64,000 nt of DNA from contig OX638345.1 in NCBI GenBank assembly GCA_951813535.1, forward strand, positions 2,105,158 to 2,169,157. The letters are read 5' to 3'. Below the pieces are notes generated by a model. It worked only from the letters and a program-made list of their open reading frames with translations, was not told the origin of the DNA and did no database searches. Numbering within the stretch: position 1 is the stretch's first letter; every line of letters starts with the position of its first letter. Below are positions 9,779-14,456 of this stretch, piece by piece. Made by a program: the position numbers and the translations under genes. The DNA is from an uncultured Dehalococcoidia bacterium. GTDB lineage: Bacteria > Chloroflexota > Dehalococcoidia > Lucifugimonadales > UBA3495.

Positions 9779-9808
9779 GAAAAGCCCCGACGTTGGATCG
9801 TCGGGGCT
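9779..9808 (-). terminator. Rho-independent terminator after tRNA-Sec
   Basis: On the minus strand AGCCCCGACG and CGTCGGGGCT form a perfect 10-bp stem with a 6-nt loop, followed by TTTTC. It lies about 40 nt downstream of the tRNA-Sec 3' end and ends the thioredoxin/tRNA-Sec transcript. Confidence 0.75.
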
Positions 9809-9848
9809 CATCAATCGGGGCGGCGGTTCAGGGAGCCGCAGTTTCAGT

Positions 9849-9945
9849 TGGCGGGAGTGCGAGGGAGTCGAACCCACCTACCCCGCTCGTCACGAGGCAT
9901 AACGGATTTGAAGTCCGCAAGAGCCACCGGGCCCCATCCACTCCC
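9849..9945 (-). tRNA. selC: tRNA-Sec (anticodon UCA)
   Basis: The minus strand reads GGGAGTGG at the 5' end, paired with GCACTCCC near the 3' end, then G and an encoded CCA (97 nt in all). The anticodon arm is GCGGA-CTTCAAA-TCCGT, giving anticodon TCA, and the loop sequence ACTTCAAATCC is identical to that of E. coli tRNA-Sec. A long variable arm (GCCTCGTGACGAGCGGGG region) and the T arm GGGTTCGACTCCC follow. It lies 12 nt behind the thioredoxin stop with no promoter between them, so it is probably cut from a thioredoxin/tRNA transcript. It shows that the genome reads UGA as selenocysteine in some mRNAs. Confidence 0.93.
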
Positions 9946-9957
9946 GCGAATCGGCGT

Positions 9958-10287
9958 TTAGCTCTCCAGCACCGCGTCGATCTTCCGCTTCAGCGCCGGC
10001 TTGGGCTGCGCGCCGACCACCTGGTCCACCGGCTGGCCGTTCTTGAAGAAGATCAGCGCCGGGATGCTGCGGATGCCGTACTGCGCCGCGATCTCCGGCG
10101 CGTTGTCCACGTCCAGCTTGGCCACGTTCAGCTTGCCTTCGTACTCCAGCGCCAGGTCATGCACGGCCGGAGCGATCATCTTGCAGGGCCCGCACCATTC
10201 CGCCCAGAAGTCCACCATTACCGGCAGATCCGAGTCCATCACGTTGCTTTGCCAGTTCTCTCCGTTCACTGCGATTGGTTCGGGCAT
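9958..10287 (-). CDS. trxA: Thioredoxin
   Basis: This is a standard 109-residue cytoplasmic thioredoxin with the active site WAEWCGPCK at about residues 28-36, the cis-proline segment RSIPALIFF and the conserved Asp in VMVDFWA. It reduces protein disulfides and is the expected partner of the FTR-like enzyme encoded at 14031-14456. ATG at 10287 is preceded by GGAGGA about 6 nt away. A TATAAT is present about 86 nt upstream on the minus strand. tRNA-Sec follows 12 nt after the stop, and a terminator lies after the tRNA, so the two form one transcription unit. Confidence 0.96.
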   Translation of the reverse strand: MPEPIAVNGENWQSNVMDSDLPVMVDFWAEWCGPCKMIAPAVHDLALEYEGKLNVAKLDVDNAPEIAAQYGIRSIPALIFFKNGQPVDQVVGAQPKPALKRKIDAVLES

Positions 10288-10372
10288 CTCTATTCCTCCA
10301 GGCTAGACAGTCATTGGCCGCGCGTGACGGGGACACTGATCGTCCGCGCTCGGCGACCGGGATGGTGTTCAC

Positions 10373-10399
10373 ATTATACAGGGGCGACAGACCGGTCAA
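10373..10399 (-). promoter_or_regulatory. Promoter of the thioredoxin/tRNA-Sec unit
   Basis: On the minus strand TTGACC (10399-10394) and TATAAT (10378-10373) are 15 nt apart. The start point would be near 10366, leaving a leader of about 80 nt before the thioredoxin ATG. The spacing is short for a sigma70 promoter, so confidence is moderate. Confidence 0.5.
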
Positions 10400-10483: not shown

Positions 10484-12346
10484 ATGACTGCCGCAACCTC
10501 AGCGGAAACGAACTCGCACTTGCAGCGCGGCGACATCGTCGAGCTGGATCTTCATGCGTGGGGTCGCCTCGGCGAGGCCATGGCCTGGCACGCGGGTTCG
10601 GATGTTTTCGTTTTCGGCGGCATACCCGGAGAGCGGGTCGAAGCCGAAATCGTCGCCGTTCGCCGCAAGTACGTCGCTGCGCAGGTCACTCGCGTGATCA
10701 ATCCCTCTCCGGTGCGGGTCGAGCCGCCGTGCGAATACTTCGGCCAATGCACCGGCTGTCAATGGCAGCACGTTGGCTATGAGGCGCAGCTGGCAGCCAA
10801 AACCGAGATCGTGCGCGATGCGTTGGAGCGCATCGGGAATTTCCACGCGCCCGAGGTGCAACCCACCCTGGCGTCACCCCGCCAGCTTCATTACCGGAAC
10901 CACGCGCGGTTCAACATCTGGCGTGAGAGCGGGAGCCTGGGGTTTACCCACCGGGAGCGGCGCCGTTTCGTGCGCATCGACCGTTGCCTGCTCATGCACG
11001 ATGGCATCAACGATATCCTCGCCCAACTGCAGGGGCGTAGTGGCGAGACTTCGCAACTGGCCATCCGCTGCTCTCCCGATACCGGAGACTATCTGGTTCA
11101 GCCGACACTGAAAAACCCGGACGTCGCTATCCCGACCGGCCAGAAAACCTACCGTGAAACCGTCGCCGACCACGAATTCCAGGTAGCGTCACCGTCGTTT
11201 TTCCAGGTCAACGTATGGCAGGCGGCCCGATTGGCCGAGTTGGTCCGGGACGCCGTGCAACTGAAAGGCAATGAGACCGTGGTCGATGCCTATGCCGGCG
11301 TCGGGACTTTCGCCGTGTTGTTGGCGCCTTACGCTCGTCGCATCGTAGCCGTGGAAGAATCCACCGCTGCCATCAGCGACGCCATCGAGAACGCGTCGCA
11401 CCTCCCCAACGTTGAGTTGGTCACCGGCAAGGTCGAAGAGATTCTTCCGAACATCGACGTGACGCCCGACGCCGTGATCCTGGACCCGTCCCGTTCCGGA
11501 TGCCAGCCCGCCGTACTCGATACCCTGCTGGCGCTGTGCCCGGACCGCATCGCCTATGTGTCCTGCAACCCGGAATCGTTGGCCCGGGATTTACGCGCGT
11601 TGAGCCGTCGCTACCGGCTCGAGACCGTCCAGCCGGTTGATATGTTCCCTCAAACTCACCACGTGGAATGTGTCGCGACGTTGGTGGTTAAACCGCCAAC
11701 CGGGGAAATAGTGCTGGCGTCGGCGTCGCCCCGTCGCCGAGAGCTGCTGTCCGGACTGGGTATTGACTTTCGCGTCGCGCCCTCCGACATACCGGAAGAC
11801 CCGGAACCCGGCGAGAGCCCCGAGTTGATGGTGCGTCGGTTGTCGCGGGAGAAGGCTCTGGCCGTGGCCGTCGCAGAATCTGCACAGTCTGGATACTACG
11901 TCGGCGCGGACAGCACGGTCGTCCTCGATGGCGAGTCCATCGCCAAACCCGCGGACGCCGCCGAGGCTCGCTCCATGCTTCGTCGGCTGCGAGGCACCAC
12001 GCATCAGGTGATCACCGGCTTCACCGTTTACGACGCGTCCACCGGACGCTGCATCACGGACGCCAACGCCGCCGACGTGCAGATGCGGGAATTCTCGGAT
12101 GCGGAGATGGAGGAGTCCATCGCCAGCGGCACTCCCATGGACAAAGCCGGCGCATACGCGATTCAGGATCCGGATTTCAGACCGGCGTCGCTCCTTTCGG
12201 GCTGCTACTCCAACGTGATGGGATTGCCGGCCTGTCGGGTGGTCGAGACTCTGGCCGAGATGGGATGCCTGCTGCCTGACCGCGCGTCCATGGCGGCGCC
12301 GGCGGGATGCACCGTTTCCTGTCCCCTGGGCTCGGCGTCGCCCTGA
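10484..12346 (+). CDS. RlmD/TrmA-type RNA (uracil-5-)-methyltransferase fused to a Maf-like nucleotide pyrophosphatase
   Basis: This 620-residue protein joins two enzymes. Residues 1 to about 405 form an RNA m5U methyltransferase with an N-terminal TRAM-like region. Three Fe-S cysteines are C83, C89 and C92, with C168 a likely fourth ligand. The SAM motif is DAYAGVGTF (268-276), motif IV is DPSRSG (334-339), the catalytic Cys is in SCNP (C361) and the general base is in HHVEC (E395). Residues about 409 to 600 form a Maf/YhdE domain with LASASPRRRELL (411-422), GADSTVV (474-480) and an AGAYAIQD motif near 555-562. Maf enzymes hydrolyse non-canonical nucleoside triphosphates such as m5UTP and UTP/dTTP. 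The frame is continuous, with no stop or restart at the joint (VVKPPTGEIV). Confidence 0.92.
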   Translation: MTAATSAETNSHLQRGDIVELDLHAWGRLGEAMAWHAGSDVFVFGGIPGERVEAEIVAVRRKYVAAQVTRVINPSPVRVEPPCEYFGQCTGCQWQHVGYEAQLAAKTEIVRDALERIGNFHAPEVQPTLASPRQLHYRNHARFNIWRESGSLGFTHRERRRFVRIDRCLLMHDGINDILAQLQGRSGETSQLAIRCSPDTGDYLVQPTLKNPDVAIPTGQKTYRETVADHEFQVASPSFFQVNVWQAARLAELVRDAVQLKGNETVVDAYAGVGTFAVLLAPYARRIVAVEESTAAISDAIENASHLPNVELVTGKVEEILPNIDVTPDAVILDPSRSGCQPAVLDTLLALCPDRIAYVSCNPESLARDLRALSRRYRLETVQPVDMFPQTHHVECVATLVVKPPTGEIVLASASPRRRELLSGLGIDFRVAPSDIPEDPEPGESPELMVRRLSREKALAVAVAESAQSGYYVGADSTVVLDGESIAKPADAAEARSMLRRLRGTTHQVITGFTVYDASTGRCITDANAADVQMREFSDAEMEESIASGTPMDKAGAYAIQDPDFRPASLLSGCYSNVMGLPACRVVETLAEMGCLLPDRASMAAPAGCTVSCPLGSASP

Positions 12347-13791: not shown

Positions 13792-14030
13792 GTTGCTCTG
13801 TCTCCACGGAGTTCCGTCTATTCTAACAGAACGCTAAACCACCCACCATTTTCTCGAACCGTCGTCGCCAGCGAACCGCGGCATCGTCGTCCAGCCCGGC
13901 CTGCCCGTGCCCCGGGCTCCCGCGTCCTGCATTGCAGAATTCAGTGGATAAGAATACCATTGAACCACAAACCATGCCGGCAATCCCAAATTTGGCCGCC
14001 GGAATGACCAGATATTTGAGGAGGAACCAA

Positions 14031-14456
<426 letters not shown>

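Follow-up and report, generated by a model that had tools for sequence, protein, structure and literature searches.

The locus described here raises the question of why a gene for selenocysteine tRNA (tRNA-Sec, selC) directly follows a thioredoxin gene, and what keeps the two together. The window, a stretch of 64,000 nucleotides from an uncultured Dehalococcoidia bacterium, carries both genes on the minus strand. The tRNA-Sec gene (9849-9945) was identified by ARAGORN, which assigned the anticodon UCA, and by the Rfam covariance model RF01852, where its score of 66.4 bits against a gathering cut-off of 47 places it among bacterial tRNA-Sec genes. In the whole genome, a single contig of 4.38 Mb, no other RF01852 match exceeds the cut-off. 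Upstream of it, trxA (9958-10287) encodes a thioredoxin of 109 amino acids with the active-site motif WCGPC. Its product reaches 114.8 bits with Pfam PF00085 and 129 bits with NCBIfam TIGR01068 (cut-off 96.8), which identifies it as a classical thioredoxin TrxA. No other full-length classical thioredoxin match was found in the genome, which also encodes three thioredoxin-reductase-like flavoproteins. The intergenic gap (9946-9957, minus strand, ACGCCGATTCGC) agrees with the first-pass annotation, which had placed tRNA-Sec 12 nt past the thioredoxin stop on the same strand.

The genome contains a complete Sec machinery, with selA, selB and selD all present. Each of these genes lies far from tRNA-Sec (chromosome position 2115010; selA at 2351605, selB at 705707), and tRNA-Sec does not adjoin selA and selB as it does in a selABC operon. 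The selD gene (G000:C1:1105770-1106690, L329) has one in-frame TGA, and SelD of this genome is probably itself a selenoprotein.

The sequence around the pair was aligned across 11 genomes of the genus. Well upstream of trxA, amid unconserved sequence, the only conserved block is TTGACC-N15-TATAAT, a promoter with its -35 element at 10394-10399 and its -10 element at 10373-10378 on the minus strand. TTGACC is kept in 10 of the 11 genomes, the contig of the eleventh (G182) ending before the site, and TATAAT in all 11; the ribosome-binding site before trxA is also conserved. A simple sigma-70 scan missed this promoter because its spacer is 15 nt. Downstream of tRNA-Sec, an intrinsic terminator (9780-9808, minus strand) consists of a 10 bp stem (9783-9792/9799-9808, GCCCCGACG/CGTCGGGGC) followed by TTTT, and the minus-strand segment 9760-9845 folds with -38 kcal/mol (z -5.7). 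A promoter before thioredoxin and a terminator after the tRNA had both been proposed in the first-pass annotation, and both are borne out. The gap between the genes measures 11-26 nt across the 11 genomes, and scanning of these gaps, including that of the window, detected neither a terminator nor a promoter. With a promoter before trxA, none detected before the tRNA and a terminator after it, a single transcript of trxA and tRNA-Sec is likely in this genus. The earlier proposal of one transcription unit is thus supported for the genus by footprinting of promoter, gap and terminator in sequence alignments, and the pair has the layout of a mixed mRNA/tRNA operon, with a shared promoter and nothing detected between the genes.

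Scans across the order give a similar picture. Promoter-like sites precede trxA in 55 of 91 order genomes (mean of 11.6 and at most 16 in shuffled sequence). Within 75 nt upstream of short-gap tRNA-Sec genes, such sites occur in 4 of 42 cases, no excess over shuffled sequence (2.4), and an order-wide scan for a -10 element before tRNA-Sec performed no better than shuffled, although a tRNA promoter of non-consensus type would escape the scans used. The terminator search, which used loose loop and tail settings to admit hairpins whose A-T pairs extend into the T tract, returned 0 of 42 in the short gaps; downstream of tRNA-Sec, 17 of 41 short-gap genomes have a terminator-like site (shuffled 0).

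The linkage itself extends well beyond the genus. RF01852 matches over the cut-off were found in 216 of 250 order genomes. Neighbourhoods with 1.4 kb or more of upstream sequence were compared from 98 genomes of 25 families; they were taken in part from the tRNA matches with the best scores and do not form a random sample. In 89 of these genomes, representing 23 of the families, trxA lies upstream of tRNA-Sec on the same strand within 1.5 kb; in 9 genomes it is absent from that place. The pairing is not a local accident; it is the rule in the order. The survey of relatives proposed in the first-pass annotation thus shows that the alternative considered there, genes unlinked in all relatives, is false. 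Other neighbours are not retained to the same degree: the next neighbour, rlmD-maf, is kept in 2 of 25 families and tatC in 1. In the window, rlmD-maf is the divergent neighbour of trxA, about 200 nt away on the side opposite tRNA-Sec; it is a 620-aa ORF (10484-12346) fusing a TrmA/RlmD-like uracil methyltransferase with a Maf domain.

The transcriptional link is less uniform. A clear intrinsic terminator lies between trxA and tRNA-Sec in 12 genomes from three families (parts of f1, f27 and f33; shuffled 0.2), and some members of the class have a TATACT-like box 6-9 nt before tRNA-Sec. Where either element intervenes, the two genes look like separate units, and their transcriptional link appears sometimes to be undone. 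These lineages indicate that adjacency is more conserved than co-transcription.

Among 71 genomes sampled from other orders of the class, 15 have trxA-trxB-tRNA-Sec, 7 trxA-tRNA-Sec and 2 trxB-tRNA-Sec; the identity of trxB is backed by NCBIfam TIGR01292 (364.6 bits; cut-off 343). In 21 of the 71, selA, selB or selD is near tRNA-Sec. Five loci of other class families (L109, L110, L125, L126 and L133) show tRNA-Sec followed by selD-selA-selB in one direction. Outside the class, the link was seen in 1 of about 40 informative loci. An exact-pattern scan of 84,980 species, combining WCGPC codons, a short gap and the tRNA-Sec anticodon arm, returned 38 places, all 38 being true trxA and tRNA-Sec pairs; the pattern recovers about one third of known linked loci and bounds the short-gap form only. 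Nearly all of these matches are titled Chloroflexota/Chloroflexi, Dehalococcoidia or SAR202, and the remaining titles are Thermoflexus, Bacterium HR23 and one Dormibacterota.

These observations are probably best explained by a small mixed mRNA/tRNA operon that yields one transcript, holds the tRNA locked behind trxA and has been inherited within the class. A housekeeping promoter upstream of trxA would drive a single transcript covering trxA and tRNA-Sec up to the terminator, and RNase P and 3' trimming would then release tRNA-Sec from it. Lacking a promoter of its own, tRNA-Sec would depend on that of trxA and would thereby be locked behind it, which may be why the pair has persisted when every other neighbour has changed. 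Its origin would lie in an ancestor within the class, probably as a thioredoxin-system unit, trxA(-trxB)-tRNA-Sec.

A different link had been suggested by a gene for the catalytic chain of ferredoxin-thioredoxin reductase (FTR; 13932-14456, plus strand; PF02943, 77.7 bits), which lies outside the conserved unit. The first-pass annotation had noted a Sec-FTR gene about 4 kb away, and this is correct. An in-frame TGA at 14286-14288 replaces the last Cys of the CHC motif (CHU versus CHC), and relatives L299-L305 and L307 have Cys at this place, as expected for a selenoprotein FTR. After the UGA, a hairpin with apical GCAGGUCUGC has a consensus energy of -11.9 kcal/mol over five near-identical sequences, with a single-sequence z of only -1.3; we take it to resemble the SECIS of E. 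coli fdhF. The nearby FTR is accordingly presented here as a real selenoprotein candidate. Also widespread in the order is a distinct FTR-like family whose genes have two in-frame TGA codons (CPU...CPC...CIU; L308-L315, L317-L326 and L328), so that both redox-active Cys are predicted to be Sec. A Sec-containing FTR was reported in 2008 from the Global Ocean Sampling survey, and one double-Sec FTR read is also reported there (PMC2398784). As in the window, the catalytic chain there has Sec at a redox-active Cys; in contrast to the present locus, a link to tRNA-Sec or thioredoxin genes is not reported in the available part of that paper.

In the coupling proposed by the first-pass annotation, FTR reduces thioredoxin, itself needs Sec and is encoded nearby, such that tRNA-Sec supply would follow redox demand. 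The UGA at a catalytic Cys and the SECIS-like hairpin agree with this, and in two loci from another order of the class, L116 and L143, trxA and tRNA-Sec have a Sec-FTR gene of opposite orientation between them. However, in the window other genes separate FTR from the pair and its strand is the opposite one. Within the family, 3 of 24 genomes have FTR less than 7 kb upstream, and none of 8 other genomes of the order does. An FTR-type gene was matched in 33 of 108 order genomes and not in the other 75, yet the trxA-tRNA-Sec linkage is the rule. A gene that is rarely nearby, and was not matched in most of these genomes, cannot explain the linkage; FTR was rejected as the driver of the pairing, and the coupling itself is highly improbable. 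Plain inertia, in which nothing has parted the neighbours and tRNA-Sec has a weak promoter of its own inside the trxA 3' end, is unlikely. Adjacency does persist even across a separating terminator. However, in 23 of the 25 families rlmD-maf, about 200 nt from trxA in the window, does not appear at this place, and the trxA 3' end, searched for the separate tRNA promoter that the first-pass annotation had raised, shows no promoter excess. Four-fold-site identity at this end is 0.68, compared with 0.58-0.72 elsewhere in the gene; this absence of extra synonymous constraint does not suggest a hidden promoter, and a separate promoter there was rejected on both the scans and the four-fold sites.

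A functional selenium operon would add a reason to the mixed-operon explanation and does not exclude it. Thioredoxin would reduce selenite and pass selenium towards SelD, and co-expression with tRNA-Sec (and TrxB) would balance selenium supply and acceptor; we regard this as quite possible, while leaning against it. According to PMC8538045, TrxA with thioredoxin reductase reduces selenite, and full selenoprotein activity in E. coli needs TrxA; this direct role makes a better functional link than FTR. The class-wide partners of tRNA-Sec are trxA and trxB, the linked trxA is the only full-length classical thioredoxin match found in its genome, and the Sec gene set is complete, with a TGA-containing selD. 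However, selA, selB and selD are far away, and lineages with an in-gap terminator seem to live uncoupled. Rather doubtful is the proposal that trxA(-trxB)-tRNA-Sec is a thioredoxin-system operon coupling selenium reduction and delivery to the acceptor tRNA, ancestral in Dehalococcoidia and selected as a regulated selenium-assimilation unit. The data fit both a functional selenium reason, with some benefit of joint expression, and a single ancestral event followed by promoter lock-in, which accounts for the same data and is the simplest account.

Both mixed protein/tRNA operons and selA/selB-tRNA-Sec operons are already known. In mixed mRNA/tRNA operons of the type of E. coli thrU-tufB, a tRNA and a protein gene have a common promoter and the tRNA is cut from the transcript, as predicted here; in contrast, the protein gene comes first in the present pair and the tRNA is tRNA-Sec. 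Operons of tRNA-Sec with selA and selB have been described, with few exceptions, for genomes with unusual tRNAs (PMC5330540). These selABC operons likewise combine tRNA-Sec and protein genes in a single unit, whereas here the partner is thioredoxin, or thioredoxin with its reductase, and selA, selB and selD are dispersed. In thioredoxin-dependent selenite assimilation, TrxA acts upstream of Sec-tRNA-Sec formation; genetic linkage with tRNA-Sec is not described in the available part of the source (PMC8538045). A literature search on tRNA-Sec/selC with trxA/thioredoxin found no description of the linkage, which is not proof of novelty as most subscription papers fell outside the search. A search on SAR202 and selenoprotein found no paper.

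Through this pairing, the use of selenium is linked to a protein that is known to prepare selenium in other organisms. The TrxA-SeO step of selenium handover to SelD is called open in PMC8538045, and the deep pairing with tRNA-Sec, which reaches sister orders and includes trxB, provides independent genomic evidence pointing to the thioredoxin system in selenium reduction and handover. The host group, marine SAR202-type Chloroflexota, is abundant and mostly uncultured, and in its genomes the pairing can serve as a practical tRNA-Sec marker. The pair may also exemplify a tRNA gene locked in behind the promoter of another gene.

The tRNA-Sec gene also looks like an integration site. In L091, a phage-type integrase ORF (PF00589) lies at the tRNA, 43-955 nt after the tRNA-Sec start, and in six loci (L042, L055, L057, L101, L139 and L167) 22-40 nt of the tRNA-Sec 3' end recur nearby. 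In several cases the contig ends just past tRNA-Sec. About 11 loci of the order carry the tRNA-Sec anticodon loop CUUCAAC in place of CUUCAAA.
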